Of a stretch of DNA of 34,104 bases, positions 2,154 through 10,747 are shown one piece after another. How positions within the stretch are numbered: position 1 is the first letter of the stretch; the number at the start of each line of letters is the position of its first letter. Source of the DNA: an uncultured Lachnospiraceae bacterium (GTDB lineage: Bacteria; Bacillota; Clostridia; Lachnospirales; Lachnospiraceae); assembly GCA_947567595.1 (NCBI GenBank), contig CANOMQ010000042.1, forward strand, positions 1 through 34,104. The letters are read 5' to 3'. A program made the position numbers and the translations under genes. The notes below the pieces were generated by a model. It saw nothing but the letters and a program-made list of their open reading frames with translations, was not told where the DNA came from and did no database searches.

Positions 2154-3473
2154 TTACGGCAGCCGTACCGTAAAGACCGTGCCGCGTCCTGTGTCCGGGT
2201 TATCGGCGGCGGTGATGGTTCCGCCGTGTGCGGCGACAATTTCATAGGCGATGGACAGTCCAAGCCCGAAGTGGTTTTTATCGCTTCGGGCTTTTTCGCT
2301 GCGGTAAAAGCGTTCGAAGATACGGGTTTTGTCGTCGTCGCTGATACCGATACCGGTGTCATAGACAGCGAGCGAAAAATGTCTGCGCGCGTTTTTGCGA
2401 TAGCTGAGGGTGGCGGCGATGCTACCGTGTTCGGGGGTATAGCTGACGGCGTTATGCAGCAGGATTGTGAGCGTCTGCGCGATACGCTGCGCGTCACAGC
2501 AGCAGGCAGGGACGGGAGTGTCAGGGAGGACTACGGACAGGCGGATATTTTTTTCGGCGGCAAGACGCTCGAAGGCTTCGCAGGTATTTAAAAGCAGGGT
2601 GTCAAGCTCGGTGGGCGCTTTTTGGATATCAAGGTGTCCGGCGTCACGGCTTGAGAGGGTGAGCATGTCGTTTAGCAGGCGGGAGCTGCGCAGCGCTTCG
2701 TTTTTGATGGCGGCAATATCGTGCTTTAAGTTTATGACACTTGTGTCAGTTTTTCCTGTCTGCTGTGTGGTGGAGGAAGCAAGGTTGTCCTGTGCCGCCT
2801 CCGCGCAGGAGAGAATGACCGCAAGGGGCGTGCGCAGCTCGTGGGAGGCTGCGGCAACAAAGCGGTTCTGGCGCAGGCGGTTTTCTTCGATGGGCGCTAA
2901 GAGTCGTTTGGTGTAAATCCACATGAAAATCCAAATGGCAATAAGCGCGAGAAAAACAACCCCGAGAAAGACAAAGCGCTGTCTTAAAACCTGTCCGCGT
3001 ATGTCGGAGAGCGGGATTGCAATCAGCATTTCAATGGGCGTCTTGTTCTGTATGACCGTGATGACAAAGCAGTAGTAATCGGCGGTGGAAAATGACTGGT
3101 AGTGGCATTTATAGGAAATGGCAACGGAAACGGCAGGCTCGTTGTCCCTGTAATATGCCCAAAGGCTGTCAAGCAGTTCGGTGCGCTGTTTGGTGGTCTG
3201 CTTTTGGTTAAACAAAGAAGGCTTGCCGTTGTCGAGCAGGGAAATAAAACAGTTGTGCGACGCCTCAATCTGCGAGAGCCATATGTGCGAAATGACGCCC
3301 AGATTGTCCAAGTGTACGGCGATGTTGTAGATGTCGGACTGGTAGGAGCTGCGGCGGTTTTCAATCAGGTTTTGCTCCGAGATGTAAAGATAACCGCAGG
3401 TCATAATCGTCAAAATGAGCGTGGTCATCATGCCGCTTAGCAAGGTCAGCCGGATACGGACTTTTTTAAACAT
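2154..3473 (-). CDS. Sensor histidine kinase (two-component system)
   Basis: Membrane sensor kinase of 439 residues. A transmembrane helix at about 10-30 and another at about 167-188 bracket an extracellular sensing region of about 130 residues with no motif I recognise. The dimerisation/phosphoacceptor box is ASHELRTPL, with the likely phosphorylated histidine at 211. An HATPase domain follows, with an N box (LLHNAVSYTPE), G1 (DTGIGIS) and G2 (GLGLSIAYEI). No full HAMP domain is visible between the second helix and the H box. The gene lies 23 bp downstream of the response regulator on the same strand and is probably cotranscribed with it. The stimulus is unknown; the shared operator upstream of the 5002-10747 operon makes that operon the likely output. 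Confidence 0.95.
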   Translation of the reverse strand: MFKKVRIRLTLLSGMMTTLILTIMTCGYLYISEQNLIENRRSSYQSDIYNIAVHLDNLGVISHIWLSQIEASHNCFISLLDNGKPSLFNQKQTTKQRTELLDSLWAYYRDNEPAVSVAISYKCHYQSFSTADYYCFVITVIQNKTPIEMLIAIPLSDIRGQVLRQRFVFLGVVFLALIAIWIFMWIYTKRLLAPIEENRLRQNRFVAAASHELRTPLAVILSCAEAAQDNLASSTTQQTGKTDTSVINLKHDIAAIKNEALRSSRLLNDMLTLSSRDAGHLDIQKAPTELDTLLLNTCEAFERLAAEKNIRLSVVLPDTPVPACCCDAQRIAQTLTILLHNAVSYTPEHGSIAATLSYRKNARRHFSLAVYDTGIGISDDDKTRIFERFYRSEKARSDKNHFGLGLSIAYEIVAAHGGTITAADNPDTGRGTVFTVRLP

Positions 3474-3496: not shown

Positions 3497-4189
3497 TTAT
3501 GGTTGTTTTGCACCTGCTTCGTCGTGCAGGCAGTAGCCGACGCCGCGGATTGTCTTGATTTCAAGGCGGCTGCCGACTGTTTTTAGCCTGCGCCGCAGGA
3601 AATAGATATAGTTGTCAAGATTGCCCTCCTCAACGTCGCTGTCCGGTCCCCAGATTTTGAGGAGCAGCGTGTTTCGGGGGAAGGTCTGCGTGGGATTTTT
3701 GAGGAACACTTCAAGCAGCGCCCCTTCGCGGTTGGAGAGGGTGCAGGCGCCGTCTTTTCCGGTGAGCGAGTTGTCAGCCGCGTTGTAGCAGATGTCCGCA
3801 AGGCGCAGCTCGCTTGTCATGTTTAAAATGGGCGAGCGGCGTGTGACACATTGGATTCTTGCAAGCAGCTCTTCAAACGCGAAGGGCTTTACGAGGTAAT
3901 CGTCCGCGCCGAGATTTAAGCCCGTTACCTTGTCGCTTAGTGTGCCGAGCGCTGTGATTAAGATAACGGGGGTGCCGATACCGGTTTCACGCAGTTTTTT
4001 CAAAACGGTGGTTCCGTCCATTTGGGGGAGCATCCGGTCGAGCAGGATAACGTCGTGGATATTCTGTTCACAAAAGTAAAGCGCCTCCTCGCCGTCAAAG
4101 CAGCAGTCAACCGTAAAGCCGTTTGCCGTAAGCTGCTGTGCGATGGAATGATTTAAGGCTTTGTCGTCCTCTGCAAGTAAAATGCGCAT
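3497..4189 (-). CDS. OmpR/PhoB-family response regulator
   Basis: DNA-binding response regulator of 230 residues. The N-terminal receiver domain has an acidic pocket at EDD (7-9), phosphoacceptor Asp51 in LLDRMLPQMDG and the conserved Lys101 in LVKPF. A winged-helix effector domain covers about residues 127-225, with the typical ending TIRGVGYCL. The start ATG is preceded on the minus strand by an AGGAGG-like site. The promoter region carries two TTAGAGA half-sites 11 bp apart (4277-4297), followed 10 bp later by TATACT, which suggests autoregulation. The same arrangement is present before the lipoprotein operon at 5002. Confidence 0.96.
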   Translation of the reverse strand: MRILLAEDDKALNHSIAQQLTANGFTVDCCFDGEEALYFCEQNIHDVILLDRMLPQMDGTTVLKKLRETGIGTPVILITALGTLSDKVTGLNLGADDYLVKPFAFEELLARIQCVTRRSPILNMTSELRLADICYNAADNSLTGKDGACTLSNREGALLEVFLKNPTQTFPRNTLLLKIWGPDSDVEEGNLDNYIYFLRRRLKTVGSRLEIKTIRGVGYCLHDEAGAKQP

Positions 4190-4276
4190 GGGTGCGTTGT
4201 TCCTCCTTTGTTCCGCATTGTGTATGCTTTCTATTTTAATGCGTTTTTCTTGAGTTTAAAAACAGTATAGCACAAA

Positions 4277-4297
4277 GTTTCTCTAAAGTATCTCTAA
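4277..4297 (-). promoter_or_regulatory. Predicted response-regulator operator upstream of the regulator's own gene
   Basis: Read on the minus strand, this is TTAGAGA-N4-TTAGAGA followed by AAC. The half-sites are 11 bp apart, the spacing used by OmpR/PhoB-type dimers. The second half-site ends 10 bp before a -10 box, TATACT (plus-strand 4264-4269), and there is no good -35, as in activator-dependent class II promoters. Nineteen of 21 bases match the element at 4904-4924. That the neighbouring regulator binds here is inference from position and spacing. Confidence 0.65.
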
Positions 4298-4319
4298 TTA
4301 AGGAAATATTAAGGAAACA
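4298..4319 (+). repeat. 11-bp tandem direct repeat TTAAGGAAAYA x2
   Basis: TTAAGGAAATA is followed immediately by TTAAGGAAACA, ten of 11 bases identical. It abuts the TTAGAGA operator but runs on the opposite strand, toward the small-ORF pair at 4413. Eleven-bp tandem repeats are the usual format of OmpR-family sites, so this may be a second, diverged binding site for the same regulator. A TATACT -10-like box lies at 4361-4366, too far away for a class II arrangement; a weak CATAAA at 4326-4331 has the right spacing. Confidence 0.45.
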
Positions 4320-4412
4320 TAAATCCATAAAGAACTATAGATATCGTGATAAAAATATGATATACTAAGGGCATGACAAAAATGTTCTTTTCTCAATGAA
4401 AGGGGTGAATGT

Positions 4413-4589
4413 ATGCCAAATAATGAAAAAGAATATAATGGATATCTCTTGGATCAGCTTGAATTGATTGAACGGCTTGAAATGGTAATAGAAGAAAATA
4501 ACATTGAGGCAGTAAAAAAACAGCTTGCGCTTGAAAAGAAATTTGTGGAGCGGAAATTGTATCAGAAGCCGCCGATCAAGGGTGAATAG
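4413..4589 (+). CDS. Small protein, 58 aa, unknown
   Basis: I do not recognise this protein. It starts MPNNEKEYNGYLL and ends QKPPIKGE. A ribosome site AGGGGTG (4401-4407) lies 6 bp before the ATG, which supports real translation. The composition is charged, with two predicted helices (about 10-28 and 31-50), no signal peptide, no membrane segment and no cysteine. It is followed 55 bp later by a second small ORF of similar size and shape. Both sit between the two-component genes and their predicted target operon. The sequence is AT-richer than the flanking large genes. Confidence 0.7.
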   Translation: MPNNEKEYNGYLLDQLELIERLEMVIEENNIEAVKKQLALEKKFVERKLYQKPPIKGE

Positions 4590-4644
4590 GCTTCATAAAA
4601 TTGGAACAATTAATATAGATTAAAAAAGGAAAGTAGGCGGTTGT

Positions 4645-4809
4645 ATGTCATTAGAAGAACAAAAAGAAGTAGCGATTAACCGATACGTAGATTTAATGCG
4701 GATAAAAGCGCATGAAACAGGGGAAAACAAAGAATTGGAATATCAGATCAGAGTTGCAAAGGTAAAGCTGGCAAGCTTTGGGATTGACTATTCGGAATTG
4801 GAACTGTAA
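4645..4809 (+). CDS. Small protein, 54 aa, unknown
   Basis: I do not recognise this protein. It starts MSLEEQKEVAINRY and ends GIDYSELEL. A purine-rich ribosome site (AGGAAAG and AGGCGG at about 4627-4640) precedes the ATG. It is predicted to form two helices with a break at HETGEN, and has no signal peptide or membrane segment. Its layout resembles the upstream 58-residue protein (helix, polar turn, helix rich in K/E/L), so the two may be distant paralogues, but identity is low. A strong terminator 20 bp after the stop closes the pair as one short transcription unit. Confidence 0.7.
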   Translation: MSLEEQKEVAINRYVDLMRIKAHETGENKELEYQIRVAKVKLASFGIDYSELEL

Positions 4810-4828
4810 TCGAAAGCAAATGTTTATT

Positions 4829-4873
4829 AAAAAGTGTGACATCTTAAATCAAAATAAGAGTTCACACTTTTTT
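4829..4873 (+). terminator. Rho-independent terminator after the small-ORF pair
   Basis: A perfect 11-bp stem pairs AAAAAGTGTGA (4829-4839) with TCACACTTTTT (4862-4872). The loop is 22 nt and the stem runs into T residues. It separates the small-ORF unit from the promoter of the lipoprotein operon. Confidence 0.8.
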
Positions 4874-4903
4874 CATTTTATAAAAATACAACAAAATCAT
4901 TCC

Positions 4904-4936
4904 TTAGAGATTTTTTAGAGAAACCTCTGCTATGAT
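4904..4936 (+). promoter_or_regulatory. Predicted response-regulator operator and -10 box of the lipoprotein operon
   Basis: TTAGAGA-N4-TTAGAGA at 4904-4921 has half-sites 11 bp apart and continues AAAC. The -10 box TATGAT (4931-4936) starts 9 bp after the second half-site. The repeats occupy the -35 position and no consensus -35 is present, as in PhoB-type class II activation. Nineteen of 21 bases match the element upstream of the response-regulator gene (4277-4297). Control by that regulator is inference. Confidence 0.65.
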
Positions 4937-5001
4937 GTCATCATACACCAATCTGCAAAGCTTGAAGACAGGGTTGGTATGAAAGGAGTATGGATATCAA
5001 A

Positions 5002-7443
5002 ATGAAGCATCAAATTGTGAAAAAAATAACAACGAAAGCGGCGGCTTTTGCGATAGCCCTCGCCTTATGCGCAGGGCTTACAGCCTGCCAGTCCGGTGGC
5101 GGGCAGAATGCCGACATGCAGACCGGCGCGCAGGCAGGAACGCAGCAACAGCAGTCAAGCGCGCCCACAGCAGAAGAGGGCGGCGACGCCGTAAGCATGG
5201 GGCGTTATGTGGAAAAGCAGGCGGAGCTTGGGGAAGGCATGGAAGGGCATTCCTACATGGTGCGGGACGGCAAAAATGTCAAGATGTTTGCGTACGGCTC
5301 GACCTTTTATACGTCGGAGGATAACGGAGACACTTGGAGCGGAACCGAACTGGAGTGGTATGAGAAGCTGCAGGAGGATAATTATGTCATGCAGACCGCG
5401 TTCACAAACGACGGAACCTATGCCATTCAGTATTCCCCGCTTTCCAAACGCGAGGACACCTTAAAGGAGGGCATGGCAGGCGACATGGGGGTGGATACGG
5501 AAAGCTCTGAGGACGAAGGGCAGACGAAACTTGACCCGCATCTGATGATTGTCAGCCCTGACGGCACGCAGAAGGAGGTGCCCGTGCAGTTTTCGTCGGA
5601 CGATATGTATGCAAGGCAGCTGCACTTTACGCAGGACGGACGGCTGTTTATGGTTACCTTTAATAAGGGCGTGTACGAGGTTGACGTGGAGACGGGCGCG
5701 CTAAACAGGCTTTGCACGATTGAAGACAACGCAATGACAATGGAAGTGCAGGGCAAGCTTTTGATGCTTGTCACCTACGACGGCGTGCTCCTTTATGACA
5801 TGGAGGGCGAGCGCTTTCTCGAGGACGAGGTGCTTGACGATTTTGTGAAGGAAACCTACAATGGGGCGACGGATTACGGCAACTGCTACAATATGTATGC
5901 ATTTTTCGGCACGGAAGATGAAAACGCGGTCTATATCGCGGGCGGCAAGGGACTGCACCGCCATGTCATCGGCGGAGCCGCGGTTGAGCAGGTGATTGAG
6001 CCGGGACTTTCGTCGTTTGGCAATCCTTCGCGCGATATTGTACATGCGATTGCGCTGGAAAATGAGGAGTTTCTGGCGCAGTTTAGCGATGGGGCGGTGG
6101 TGAAGTTTTATTATGACGAGACGGTGCCGACGGTTCCAAGCGACAGGCTTTCTGTCTATAGCCTGAAAGGCAATGACACGGTCAGACAGGCGATTGCGGC
6201 GTATCAGACGGCAAATCCCGGCGTGTTTGTGGAGTATGAGGCGGCGCTTGACGCGGACGGGATTACGCGGGAGGACGCGCTGAAAAATCTGAGCACAAGG
6301 CTGTTAAACGGCGAGGGACCGGACGTGCTCATTCTTGATGAAATGCCGATTGATACGTATGTGGAAAAGGGTATTCTGATGGATATGAGCGATATTGTCA
6401 CGGAGGTAAAAAACAGCGACGGACTGTATGAAAATGTGGTTGAACCGTTTGTGACGGACGGCAAGATTTATGTGGTGCCGATGGAGTTCCAGCTTCCGCT
6501 TGTGATGGGCGATAACCGGTATGTGGAGCAGTCGAGAACCTATGAGGGCTATGCGCAGGCGGTTGAGGCGCTTCGCGGCGAAAATCCGGAGGGTATGATT
6601 ATCAGCGACTGCAATGAACAGGGGATTACAAGGCGGTTTCTTGATGTCTGTGCGCCTGCTTGGAAAAATGAGGACGGCAGTATCAATGAAAAGAACATTC
6701 GGGCGTTTATGGAGCAGACCAAGAAAATTTTTGACGCGCAGATGAGCGGTTTAACGCAGAAACAGATGAGCGAATACAATGACAATGTGTCAAGGGTTTT
6801 CCAAAGCGGGGGCAGTGGTCAGCAGGATGAAATTGACTGGTTGTTTTATTGGAAAATGATTGAAGCGGGTGATTTTATGTATCATGATGTGAAAATGAGC
6901 AGTGGAACGGCGTATTCAATGGATAAATTTGCGGAGTCGCTTTCCATGCCAAGAAATGAGGGCTGTGAGAATATTTCCATCGGGCTGTTTGACGGGCAGA
7001 GCGAGGGCGTCTATATGGCGGAAACGCTGACGGGTATTAGTGCACAGAGCAAGAATGCCGAGGCGGCGAAATCGTTTGTGAAGCTAATGCTTTCGGAGGA
7101 AATTCAGACAAGTACGTTTCGTGGGCTTCCTATTAATAAGGCGGCGTTTGAGACGGCGCTTTCACAGTACGATGATACGCTGGAGAATGAGGAAGCTTAT
7201 ATGATGTATGGCGGTTCTGACCAAGAGGGCAATAGCTGGTTTTGGGAGTCATGGTGGCTTGACGATGCGCAAAAGCAGCAGGTTCGCGACTGGGCGGCGC
7301 AGGCGAAGACACCGCATATCACGGACGTCACGCTTGAGGACGCTGTAGAGAGCGCGTGCACGGAGTATTTAAAGGGCAGGCTTAGCCTTGACGATGCGGT
7401 TTCGCAGGTTCGCAGCAGCACCGCGATTTATATGTCGGAGTAA
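5002..7443 (+). CDS. Lipoprotein: Asp-box (propeller-like) region fused to an ABC solute-binding domain
   Basis: Surface lipoprotein of about 813 residues, roughly twice the size of a usual sugar-binding protein. A signal peptide ends in lipobox LTAC, followed by a Q/A/S-rich linker. Residues about 70-390 contain an Asp-box (SEDNGDTW) and repeated strand-like segments (SPDGTQ, FTQDGRLFM, YDGVLLYDM), suggesting a beta-propeller or BNR-like fold. From about residue 392 (DRLSVYSLKGNDTVRQAI) the sequence reads as an SBP_bac_1 domain (LLNGEGPDVLILDE, GKIYVVPMEF, ending in the usual AAKSFVKLMLS helix region). ATG 5002 is chosen over ATG 4990 because the site GAAAGGAG (4981-4988) lies only 1 bp before 4990; spacing to 5002 is long, so the start is uncertain. 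First gene of an operon with two permeases and an HlyD-type adaptor. The propeller assignment is inference. Confidence 0.88.
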   Translation: MKHQIVKKITTKAAAFAIALALCAGLTACQSGGGQNADMQTGAQAGTQQQQSSAPTAEEGGDAVSMGRYVEKQAELGEGMEGHSYMVRDGKNVKMFAYGSTFYTSEDNGDTWSGTELEWYEKLQEDNYVMQTAFTNDGTYAIQYSPLSKREDTLKEGMAGDMGVDTESSEDEGQTKLDPHLMIVSPDGTQKEVPVQFSSDDMYARQLHFTQDGRLFMVTFNKGVYEVDVETGALNRLCTIEDNAMTMEVQGKLLMLVTYDGVLLYDMEGERFLEDEVLDDFVKETYNGATDYGNCYNMYAFFGTEDENAVYIAGGKGLHRHVIGGAAVEQVIEPGLSSFGNPSRDIVHAIALENEEFLAQFSDGAVVKFYYDETVPTVPSDRLSVYSLKGNDTVRQAIAAYQTANPGVFVEYEAALDADGITREDALKNLSTRLLNGEGPDVLILDEMPIDTYVEKGILMDMSDIVTEVKNSDGLYENVVEPFVTDGKIYVVPMEFQLPLVMGDNRYVEQSRTYEGYAQAVEALRGENPEGMIISDCNEQGITRRFLDVCAPAWKNEDGSINEKNIRAFMEQTKKIFDAQMSGLTQKQMSEYNDNVSRVFQSGGSGQQDEIDWLFYWKMIEAGDFMYHDVKMSSGTAYSMDKFAESLSMPRNEGCENISIGLFDGQSEGVYMAETLTGISAQSKNAEAAKSFVKLMLSEEIQTSTFRGLPINKAAFETALSQYDDTLENEEAYMMYGGSDQEGNSWFWESWWLDDAQKQQVRDWAAQAKTPHITDVTLEDAVESACTEYLKGRLSLDDAVSQVRSSTAIYMSE

Positions 7444-7455
7444 GGATTATCAACA

Positions 7456-8217
7456 ATGTACAAAAAATGGTTTTTCGTTTTTATCACGCCAAGTCTTGTC
7501 GGCGTGGGGGTGTTTGTGGTGCTGCCGTTTGCGGACGTGGTAAAGCGTTCGTTTATGACCGTCATGTCGCAGGAATTTGTGGGGCTTGACAATTACAGGC
7601 GTGTTTTTTCCAATCAGGCGTTTGCGCTTGCGATGAAAAACACGCTGCGCTTTACGGCGACGGCAATCCCGCTGCTCGTCTTTGCCGGGCTTGTCATCGC
7701 GCTTGTGCTTGCGAAAATAAATGACACGCGTGTCATAAAAAGCCTGTACCTGTTTCCGATGGCAATGCCGACGGCGACGGTGGTGATTGTGTGGCGCATG
7801 TTTTTTTACAGGCAGGATTTTGACAGCCTTGTCGCGGGCTATTTATGGAAAAATTTAGGGTATACGCTGGTGCTTTGGCTTGCGGGGATTGCGGCAATTC
7901 CAAACGAGCTTGTGGAGGCGGCAAAGGTGGACGGCGCAGGGTGGATAAGGTGTCTGATTTATGTGAAACTGCCCTGCCTAAAGGGGAGCTTTTATACGAT
8001 TGTGGTGCTGTCCTTTCTAAACTCGTTTAAGATTTACCGCGAGGCGTACCTTGTGGCAGGCTCGTACCCGAAGGAGGAAATTTACCTGCTGCAGCATATT
8101 TTTAACAACTGGTATGTCAATTTGGAGCTCGATAAGCTGTCCGCCGCGACGGTGATGGTGGGGGCGTTTTTGTTTGTGTTTATTATGGTGCTGAACAGGC
8201 TTTGGAATGGAGATTAA
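7456..8217 (+). CDS. ABC sugar-importer permease, MalF-like, short form
   Basis: Inner-membrane permease of 253 residues. About six hydrophobic segments are visible, and the EAA loop reads EAAKVDGAG at about 154-162, the contact for an ABC ATPase. MalF-type permeases of this class are usually about 290 residues. The piece normally found between the third and fourth helices, before the conserved W-K-x-L/T-G-Y/F segment, appears to be missing: DFDSLVAGYL runs almost directly into WKNLGYT. The lactose-operon permease at 17342 keeps this segment. The gene starts 12 bp after the lipoprotein gene. No ATPase gene is in the operon, so a shared MsmK-type ATPase is likely. Confidence 0.9.
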   Translation: MYKKWFFVFITPSLVGVGVFVVLPFADVVKRSFMTVMSQEFVGLDNYRRVFSNQAFALAMKNTLRFTATAIPLLVFAGLVIALVLAKINDTRVIKSLYLFPMAMPTATVVIVWRMFFYRQDFDSLVAGYLWKNLGYTLVLWLAGIAAIPNELVEAAKVDGAGWIRCLIYVKLPCLKGSFYTIVVLSFLNSFKIYREAYLVAGSYPKEEIYLLQHIFNNWYVNLELDKLSAATVMVGAFLFVFIMVLNRLWNGD

Positions 8218-9091
8218 GGGTATGCGGCTTTTTAGACGGATTGTGAATAGTGCAGTGGCGATGACCGTTAAGCTGATGTTTATCGCAATGGGCGTGGTGA
8301 TTTGCATGCCGGTCTTTTTAGTCGTGACAGGCTCGGTGATGGGCAGTTCGGATTTGCAGGAGTGTCTTGCGCCCGTGTTTTTGGAGGGGCAGGGCTTTGT
8401 CACATGGAAGCTCATTCCGCAGTACCCGACCTTGGAGCACTACAAACGCCTCTTAATTGAGACGCCGCAGTTTTTTATCCTGTTTTGGAACAGTGTCAAA
8501 ATCACGCTGTTTATCCTTGCGGGGCAGCTTGTTGTCGGGGTGCCTGCGGCGTGGGCGTTTGCCGTGTACGACGTGCGTGGGAAGAACGCGCTGTTTTTGG
8601 TGTATGTGGTGCTCATGCTTCTGCCGTTTCAAGTGACAATGCTTTCAAGCTATATCGTGTTGGACAGGCTGTCACTGTTAAACACGCATTGGGCGGTGAT
8701 TTTGCCGGCGGTGTTTAGTACGTTTCCGGTGTTTGTCACATACGGCGGGTTCCGGGCAATCCCAAAGGCGCTGATTGAGGCGGCGCGCATTGACGGGGCA
8801 GGGGAGTTTTACATATTTACAAGGATTGGCTTGTCGCTTGGAAAGGGCGGGATTTTGTCGGCGGTGGTGCTTGGCTTTTTGGAGTATTGGAATCTGATTG
8901 AACAGCCGCTTGCGTTTTTGAAGGAGAAGGCGCTTTGGCCGCTGTCGCTCTACCTGCCGGAAATCGACTGGACACAGGCGGGATTTTCGTTCGCGGCATC
9001 GCTTGTCATGCTGATTCCGGCGGTGTTTGTGTTCCTTATGGGGCAGGATTACTTGGAGCAGGGGATTATTTACTCAGGACTAAAACAATAG
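8207..9091 (+). CDS. ABC sugar-importer permease, MalG-like
   Basis: Inner-membrane permease of 294 residues with about six transmembrane helices. The EAA loop reads EAARIDGAGEF in the MalG form. It overlaps the end of the preceding permease gene by 11 bp, indicating translational coupling. ATG 8222 (MRLFRRIV) is an alternative start with GGAG 10 bp upstream. With its partner it should form a heterodimeric pore served by the lipoprotein at 5002. The substrate cannot be told from sequence; the family usually carries oligosaccharides. Confidence 0.92.
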   Translation: MEIKGMRLFRRIVNSAVAMTVKLMFIAMGVVICMPVFLVVTGSVMGSSDLQECLAPVFLEGQGFVTWKLIPQYPTLEHYKRLLIETPQFFILFWNSVKITLFILAGQLVVGVPAAWAFAVYDVRGKNALFLVYVVLMLLPFQVTMLSSYIVLDRLSLLNTHWAVILPAVFSTFPVFVTYGGFRAIPKALIEAARIDGAGEFYIFTRIGLSLGKGGILSAVVLGFLEYWNLIEQPLAFLKEKALWPLSLYLPEIDWTQAGFSFAASLVMLIPAVFVFLMGQDYLEQGIIYSGLKQ

Positions 9092-9127
9092 GGTGCGTTC
9101 CTTGGGAATTTTGGAGTGGTATGGGAT

Positions 9128-10747
9128 ATGGAAAAGAATAAAAAATGGGTACGGCTGTTGTTGCTCTTTTTGGCAGTGATGTGGCTTTTTACGATTATTT
9201 CAAAAAGTATCTACGTGTCGAGGCTTGCGAGGGTGAAGACCGATGTGCTTTCCAAAAAATATATCGAACATATTGTCGAGGCGGACGGCATTGTCCTTGC
9301 GGGTGGCGAGGTGGCGGTCAACGCGCTCGCGGGGCTTCGTGTGGAGCATATTGCAGTGCAAAAGGGCGACTTGGTGCAAAAGGGCGAGGTGCTTTTCACG
9401 GTGGATTTGCGTGATTTGGAGGAGCTGATTGCCGATAAGGAGGCACAGCTTGCGCGCTTGGAGCTTCAGCTTGGCACGGCGCAGTTTAATGAGGTGCTCG
9501 ACGCGCAGAAGAAGGAGATTGCGCGGCTGTGGGCGCAGGAGGATTATGCGAATGCCGATAAGGAGACACAGCTTGCCCTAGACCGTGCGCAGAGCGCGCT
9601 TTTGGACGCGCAGAATGATTTGAACAAGCATTTGGACACCAGCGCGCCGCATACGTCGGGTTCTTCGCGGAAAAAGGCGTGGGAGAAGTATAACGACTGG
9701 AAGAAACAACGTTACGCATTGGAGGATAAGATTGCGGAGCTTGAGAAGGAGATTGAACGGCTAAAGGGCGAGCTTGCGGACGCGCCAGAGGAGGAGACAG
9801 ACACGGACGCAGACGTGGCGGACAAAGAGGAACAACTTGCAAAAAAGGAAAAGGAGCTGGAGGAATGTAAGGCGGAGCTGACCGATTTGGAGCGCAATCC
9901 CGTTTCACAGCCCGATTATTCAGCGGAGGAGAGTGCGTATGACGCGTGGCAGCAGACGAAATCGGGCTTGGAGGACGCGGTGCAGACGGCGAAGCACGCA
10001 TTGGAGGACGCGAAGCTTGCGCGGGAGAGTACACTGCGCGGGAAGCGGCGCGACTTGGCAAGCGCGGAGGTGACGGTAGCCGCAGACGCGACGATTGGCA
10101 TTTACAACATGGACATTGCCGCGTTGCAGAGCGAGATTGCGGATTTAAATGATGTGAAAAGCAATCAGGGCTGTGTGGCGGCAAAGGCGGACGGGTATGT
10201 CTCGGAGATTCTTGTTGCGACAGGACAGCGCACGGCGGACACGGCTGCAATGCTGCTTGCGGATACGACATCGGAGTATATGTTCCGATTTGGCATTTCA
10301 AAGGAAGAGAGTAAGTATGTACAGCTTGGCGACAGCGTCGAACTTTCCTTAAATTCTGCAGACCACAAAAAAGTGACCGTGACGGCGGACTATATCGAGG
10401 AGAATACGGCGGGCGGCTATGACGTGACATGCAGGCTTGGCGACGCGAAGGCGCCGATTGGATCATACGGCGTGGCAAAGCGGACAGTTCAGGGCGAGAT
10501 GTATTCAAGCACGGTGCCGATTGATGCGATTTTGGAAGAGAATAAGGTGTATTATCTGTTTACGGTGAATGAGAAGACAGGGATTTTGGGGAAGGAGTAT
10601 TATGTGGAGCGGCTGAAGGTGAACATTACGGACAAGAACGACCGCTATGCCGCGATTGAGGGCGCCGCGATTGGCGCGGATACGCAGATTGTTATTTTTT
10701 CGTCAAAGGAGTTGAAGCAGGGGGAGAGTGTCAGGCTGCAGGAGTAG
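9128..10747 (+). CDS. HlyD/MacA-type membrane-fusion (adaptor) protein
   Basis: Membrane-anchored adaptor of about 539 residues. It has one N-terminal transmembrane helix (LLLLFLAVMWLF), then the first half of a biotinyl-lipoyl-like domain (VEHIAVQKGDLVQKGEVLF). A long charged coiled coil follows (about residues 90-320, rich in E/K/A heptads), then the second lipoyl half (AKADGYVSEILVATGQ) and a beta-barrel region (FGISKEESKYVQLGDSVELSLN). Such proteins normally link an exporter to the outside; in single-membrane bacteria they accompany MacB-type or peptide exporters. Here it follows importer-type permeases, which is unusual. ATG 9128 is preferred over GTG 9116 because the membrane helix follows directly and GGAG lies 11 bp upstream. 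No terminator is seen before the Uma2 gene. Confidence 0.88.
   Translation: MEKNKKWVRLLLLFLAVMWLFTIISKSIYVSRLARVKTDVLSKKYIEHIVEADGIVLAGGEVAVNALAGLRVEHIAVQKGDLVQKGEVLFTVDLRDLEELIADKEAQLARLELQLGTAQFNEVLDAQKKEIARLWAQEDYANADKETQLALDRAQSALLDAQNDLNKHLDTSAPHTSGSSRKKAWEKYNDWKKQRYALEDKIAELEKEIERLKGELADAPEEETDTDADVADKEEQLAKKEKELEECKAELTDLERNPVSQPDYSAEESAYDAWQQTKSGLEDAVQTAKHALEDAKLARESTLRGKRRDLASAEVTVAADATIGIYNMDIAALQSEIADLNDVKSNQGCVAAKADGYVSEILVATGQRTADTAAMLLADTTSEYMFRFGISKEESKYVQLGDSVELSLNSADHKKVTVTADYIEENTAGGYDVTCRLGDAKAPIGSYGVAKRTVQGEMYSSTVPIDAILEENKVYYLFTVNEKTGILGKEYYVERLKVNITDKNDRYAAIEGAAIGADTQIVIFSSKELKQGESVRLQE

Follow-up and report, generated by a model that had tools for sequence, protein, structure and literature searches.

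In Escherichia coli, the response regulator PhoB contacts sigma, and its target, the PHO box, is placed in the -35 region of the promoter. The PHO box comprises two 7-bp direct repeats separated by 4 less conserved bases, a pitch of 11 bp (PMC4415409). In the VanR-VanS system, too, a regulator of the OmpR type works on repeated sites; for VanR-G, these are three 12-bp repeats, (T/C)CGTANGAAA(T/A)T, located upstream of the -35 (PMC4405338). A comparable arrangement is described here in a stretch of 34,104 nucleotides from an uncultured Lachnospiraceae bacterium (assembly GCA_947567595.1, contig CANOMQ010000042.1, positions 1 to 34,104; hereafter "the window"), in which two copies of a 21-bp operator precede the divergent genes of an OmpR/PhoB-type response regulator and of a lipoprotein. 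Comparison at the sequence level makes it highly likely that this regulator (3497-4189, minus strand) owns the operator and activates both its own operon and the divergent one, within an autoregulated cell-envelope regulon.

The operator copy before the regulator gene (minus strand, 4297-4277) reads TTAGAGATACTTTAGAGAAAC, and that before the lipoprotein gene (plus strand, 4904-4924) reads TTAGAGATTTTTTAGAGAAAC; the two agree at 19 of 21 bases, and the half-sites lie 11 bp apart in each. Both copies hold the 18-mer TTAGAGA-N4-TTAGAGA (4280-4297 and 4904-4921, respectively) plus AAAC, and both are assigned by sequence and by conservation upstream of regulator and lipoprotein homologues, respectively. 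The element has the dimensions of the PHO box and its cognate regulator would be, like PhoB, of the OmpR/PhoB type, but the repeat is TTAGAGA instead of the CTGTCAT of the PHO box (PMC4415409). Past the second half-site, the hexamer TATACT (minus strand, 4269-4264) starts at 10 bp, and TATGAT (plus strand, 4931-4936) at 9 bp. Since TGC precedes each hexamer, both promoters are of the extended -10 type (4264-4272 on the minus strand, within a block that is nearly invariant in five species, and 4928-4936 on the plus strand, with the 9-bp spacing that is found elsewhere). No recognisable -35 accompanies them: at a spacing of 16-18 bp, the closest approach to TTGACA in 141 aligned contexts having their -10 at 9 bp covers only 1-4 of the 6 bases, mostly 2 or 3. 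The initial annotation of this DNA, which had reported a near-identical 21-bp element at the two promoters, a -10 box 10 or 9 bp beyond the second half-site and the lack of a -35, is thus borne out, the extended -10 at both promoters being an addition to it.

This layout recurs well beyond the window. In 133 of 154 distinct site contexts, the best -10 lies exactly 9 bp past the second half-site (shuffled sequences: mean 4.7, maximum 12), and TGn is present in 115 contexts having this spacing; the 10-bp spacing at the regulator promoter is found in the source species and in G006, G010 and G031. A trait of OmpR/PhoB regulators is that the -35 region of the promoters they control holds tandem direct repeats with an 11-bp pitch, and repeats that replace the -35 at a near-fixed distance from an extended -10 form the layout expected, by analogy, of PhoB-type activator-dependent promoters. 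In the inferred mechanism, the phosphorylated regulator would occupy the pair of 7-bp direct repeats in head-to-tail fashion, where a -35 box would otherwise lie, and the bound protein would bring RNA polymerase to the extended -10 located 9 bp downstream (10 bp at its own gene), leading to activation of the regulator's own operon and of the divergent lipoprotein-permease-permease-adaptor operon. That the regulator represses one or both promoters, or alternates there between repressing and activating, is an unlikely alternative: a protein bound to the repeat would sit over the -35 region and could also block polymerase, but no usable -35 is left, as for activator-dependent promoters, and the near-fixed distance between repeat and -10 suits a contact with polymerase that repression would not need.

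In the whole 4.16-Mb source genome, TTAGAGA-N4-TTAGAGA occurs exactly three times, and the pattern read backwards not at all; in 38 genomes of the genus, the exact 14-base pattern was found 69 times, against 11 for its reverse. A scan of the window alone at 3 mismatches was uninformative (3 sites found, 2.2 expected), and the significance of the operator therefore derives from its exact occurrence across the whole genome and from its conservation. Conservation was followed through a homologue search of 98 genomes, the source genome included, in which 47 genomes gave matches to the lipoprotein, many of them partial, and all 98 contained regulator-family matches. Upstream regions were compared for 29 of the 30 lipoprotein loci with available DNA (the fragment L037, cut by a contig end, being excluded) and for 30 regulator loci, with the genes of the window counted in. 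The site precedes the lipoprotein gene at 28 of 29 loci, whether 1 or 2 mismatches in 14 are allowed, and the regulator gene at 27 of 30 with up to 1 mismatch and 29 of 30 with up to 2. The loci that lack it are L062, a partial match from another family, and L091, whose regulator carries the helix SSLDTYVHF and not GNLDNYI(H/Y)F. In five close species, operator and extended -10 fall inside the longest stretch of the regulator promoter that is nearly free of change: one of its bases varies, and G024 lacks one. With a regulator of only 47-48% identity, G038, from another genus, and G084, from another family, also retain the site. A chance resemblance within A+T-rich intergenic DNA, which could draw on the fact that the reversed patterns also occur, is refuted by these tests and further opposed by placement, spacing and co-occurrence with the regulator, so that its probability is negligible. 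Two isolated matches were themselves treated as chance, namely G000:C57:12676 in the source genome (1 mismatch), which falls inside a coding frame and does not appear among the operator-promoter matches (defined below), and G029:C9:9521, which likewise sits within a coding frame.

Named relatives were approached through a contig search with the second permease, considering the best 80 of 520 loci and counting a regulator at 50% identity or more. Going by their titles, most of these loci come from Lachnospiraceae or genera of that family (Kineothrix alysoides, Parablautia muri and Eisenbergiella tayi among them), a few bear unspecific titles, and one, a metagenome bin, is labelled Muribaculaceae. 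Altogether, 102 sites occur in the best 80 of 520, and 21 when the sequence is reversed. The regulator is present in 34 of them, and all 34 have at least one site somewhere at up to 1 mismatch; for 28 of the 34 regulator frames, a site with up to 2 mismatches lies between 400 bp before and 60 bp inside the frame, a placement reached in 0.15% of shuffles.

The regulon extends further than the two divergent operons. The third exact site of the source genome (G000:C72:7438-7455; L029 3439-3456) precedes an Amidase_2 gene located downstream of truA, whose product has a basic N-terminus and, as judged by sequence, one likely membrane segment; this gene and its site are kept in G010, G031 and G006. 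A fourth site, with 1 mismatch (G000:C36:19868-19900; L030 5869-5901, minus strand), precedes the gene of a small OB-like lipoprotein of 185 residues. Eight other genomes, picked for holding the module, were searched irrespective of genes, each site being assigned the highest-scoring frame with a start no more than 330 bp away. They yielded 30 sites, against 2 in the control, and 29 of these fall into five families: 13 small OB-like lipoproteins, 7 regulators, 5 binding-protein lipoproteins, 2 Amidase_2 proteins and 2 C39-like peptidases; the thirtieth precedes a frame next to masked bases, outside these families. Clusters were formed by BLAST without low-complexity masking and are supported by the alignment of the conserved domain. 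The small lipoproteins, which may belong to the Pfam family DUF5666, have in common a C-terminal domain whose model is an OB-like barrel (pLDDT >90, residues 111-217). In many named loci their gene lies inside the module, and for 28 of 32 such genes a site at up to 2 mismatches is located between 350 bp before and 120 bp inside the frame. In 20 stretches of the genus, hand-picked from the operator-promoter list and with duplicate loci in clusters removed by hand, 21 distal sites were found, 9 of which precede small lipoproteins and 4 amidases. Through this operator, the control exerted on the two divergent operons would extend to a cell-wall amidase and to small OB-like lipoproteins. No phosphate gene occurs among the target families identified, which sets this regulon apart from the Pho regulon, and the regulator scores 172 bits against the PhoB model TIGR02154, below its cut-off of 296.2, so that by this score it is no PhoB ortholog.

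The link between operator and regulator was pursued with an operator-promoter pattern, TTAGAGA-N4-TTAGAGA-N6-TGNTANNNT, at up to 2 mismatches, which occurs at 116 places in the genus, against 11 in the reversed control. It is present in all 28 genomes of the genus that have the regulator and in 2 of the 10 that lack it (Fisher p 9e-7). In one of these two, G018, the module lies at a contig end and the divergent site is present, which probably means that the assembly simply does not include the regulator. The regulator itself has a receiver and a winged-helix domain (Pfam Response_reg and Trans_reg_C, both above cut-off), and its recognition helix, NLDNYI(H/Y)F, is found in 33 of 34 orthologs, the remaining one being masked by X, and in none of 16 paralogs from the source genome. 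The element is thus very probably the regulator's own binding site, and most weight is given here to co-occurrence and to the independent target families, the sites being kin by descent. The earlier suggestion that an OmpR/PhoB regulator owns both sites accordingly gains support from conservation, from co-occurrence in the genus and from the ortholog-specific helix, as far as sequence can speak to it. The element also withstood the comparison in relatives that had been proposed as a means of refuting it, being conserved upstream of both gene families, and the proposed genome scan for TTAGAGA-N4-TTAGAGA returned the amidase, beyond the window, as a new target; of the scope first given, two operons linked by one operator, the sharing holds, but the regulon is larger and takes in the amidase and the small lipoproteins.

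The operator could instead belong to a different regulator that is conserved at the locus, for instance another one of the OmpR type. The source genome encodes at least 16 other OmpR-like regulators that match over most of the query, and among the 46 named loci without an adjacent regulator, 25 carry a site and 21 do not. Such an owner is nevertheless improbable: 8 of the 10 genus genomes without the regulator have no operator-promoter despite many other response-regulator matches, the recognition helices of all 16 paralogs differ, and no site at up to 2 mismatches lies upstream of any of these paralogs. If ownership is left with the window regulator, as preferred here, it must act from elsewhere at the 25 loci that have a site and no adjacent regulator. 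These loci count against the proposed autoregulated regulon, and so do several other observations. Six of the 34 regulator genes in named loci have no site at up to 2 mismatches near their start, and 8 of the 21 distal sites in the genus precede no known target family. The spacing of 10 bp causes the regulator's own promoter to be missed by the 9-bp genome pattern, in the source genome, G010 and G031 the -10 of the amidase promoter is plain, with no TGn before it, and the 154 contexts are kin by descent, so that the spacing count does not represent 154 independent events. Finally, the preference for activation over repression draws on analogy and on the missing -35. The 21 permease modules that have neither regulator nor operator (for example L234, L241, L256, L259, L263, L265-L267, L269-L271 and L273-L275), some of them short contigs, may serve as natural controls.

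A further likeness to VanR-VanS is that three relatives carry the operator before a vanG-like ligase gene. Among 23 vanG-like ligase genes of the genus (L142-L164, with little DNA before L144, 77 bases, and L154, 62 bases), those of G002 and G017 have an exact site and that of G003 a site with 1 mismatch, a -10 following in all three; the gene of G005 has a match with 1 mismatch and no -10, and the other 19 have no site at up to 1 mismatch in the examined flank. The stretches concerned are L139 3804-7961, L140 6915-11104 and L147, and in G002 and G017 genes for VanY-type and VanT-like proteins follow the ligase gene; neither L139 nor L140 gave a homologue of the two-component pair of the window. 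Among the 15 of 23 promoters that were inspected, those of G005, G014 and G007 are close in sequence and lack the operator. A general link to vanG was rejected, the operator being absent before most vanG-like genes of the genus. The identification of the regulator as VanR was rejected as well: both elements consist of TTAGAGA repeats and not of the VanR-G box, and no model among the best 25 of 91 is above its cut-off, the NCBIfam vanR-B model giving 112 bits against a cut-off of 480. The source genome has a vanG-like ligase gene of its own, with another OmpR-type regulator about 2.3 kb upstream (G000:C10:41473-45458; L162, L185), and the examined locus has no plus-strand TTAGAGA operator at up to 2 mismatches.

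Downstream of the regulator gene, a sensor histidine kinase is encoded (2154-3473, minus strand; HisKA and HATPase_c, PF00512 and PF02518, above cut-off), whose orthologs adjoin the regulator in relatives. On the plus strand, the divergent operon starts with the lipoprotein (4990-7443), which combines a strand-rich, propeller-like N-terminal part (residues ~70-380) with a family-1 solute-binding domain (~385-817), followed by the ABC importer permeases A (7456-8217) and B (8207-9091; alignment A1), both with Pfam BPD_transp_1, and by a probable membrane-fusion adaptor of the HlyD/RND type (9116-10747), the profile matches of which remain below cut-off (NCBIfam RND_mfp, 63.5 bits against 94.9; Pfam HlyD_D23, 27.2 bits against 30). 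The operon includes no ATPase gene; a gene with an OB_MalK domain (403-residue frame) is found elsewhere in the genome. In deeper relatives, a gene for a MacB-type periplasmic domain follows the adaptor (L127 2980-4239; L141 5386-6510), and in G007 (L124 9441-13007) genes for an AAA ATPase (AAA_21), a sub-threshold HEPN match and DUF4026 lie between the regulator and lipoprotein genes.

A family-1 solute-binding protein with two BPD_transp_1 permeases recalls the oligosaccharide importers of CbpC, MsmE and YesO, which we take to be of the CUT1 class, whereas the strand-rich N-terminal extension, the probable adaptor and the lack of an ATPase gene in the operon set the locus apart. A nutrient-uptake switch, in which a sugar sensed by the kinase is taken up through the operon's products, is a reading to which a minor share of the probability is given. 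The operon has a probable membrane-fusion adaptor, which is unusual for sugar import, and the identified target families comprise lipoproteins, C39-like peptidases and the amidase but no glycosidase (nine examined sites fall outside the assigned families). The identified targets share a cell-envelope theme, which extends from lipoproteins, adaptor, amidase and C39-like peptidases to the vanG-like ligase (in G002, G003 and G017 only), and this supports a role in the envelope better than one in feeding. More tentatively, with chances that fall somewhat short of even, the locus may represent an undescribed envelope regulon common to many Lachnospiraceae, built from a single two-component system, a single operator (TTAGAGA-N4-TTAGAGA-N6-TGnTAnnAT) and a core set of surface proteins: small OB-like lipoproteins, the propeller-fused binding protein, the importer permeases without ATPase, the adaptor, the membrane-anchored amidase and, in few lineages, the vanG-like cluster. 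The binding protein and permeases might then serve for sensing, or for export or repair in the envelope, and not for feeding.

What is new here is the operator, the regulon and its breadth, the mechanism being known; no description of either operator or regulon was found in searches of an open-licence library, which does not prove their absence in print. In a major group of gut bacteria, an orphan two-component system would become a testable regulon with a defined operator, for which any genome can be scanned, and uncharacterised surface lipoproteins, grouped with an amidase and C39-like peptidases, would acquire a first functional context in envelope upkeep or stress. The operator could, in addition, be used as a reporter for finding the signal.

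Between the two operators of the window, two small frames are present on the plus strand (4413-4589 and 4645-4809; 58 and 54 amino acids), which have no Pfam or NCBIfam match; in the close relative G010, the operators are about 100 bp apart, leaving no room for them. Elsewhere in the source genome, TTAGAAATATATTAGAAA occurs in two identical copies of opposite orientation, about 1.6 kb apart (G000:C35:34417-34434, minus strand, and 36029-36046, plus strand).
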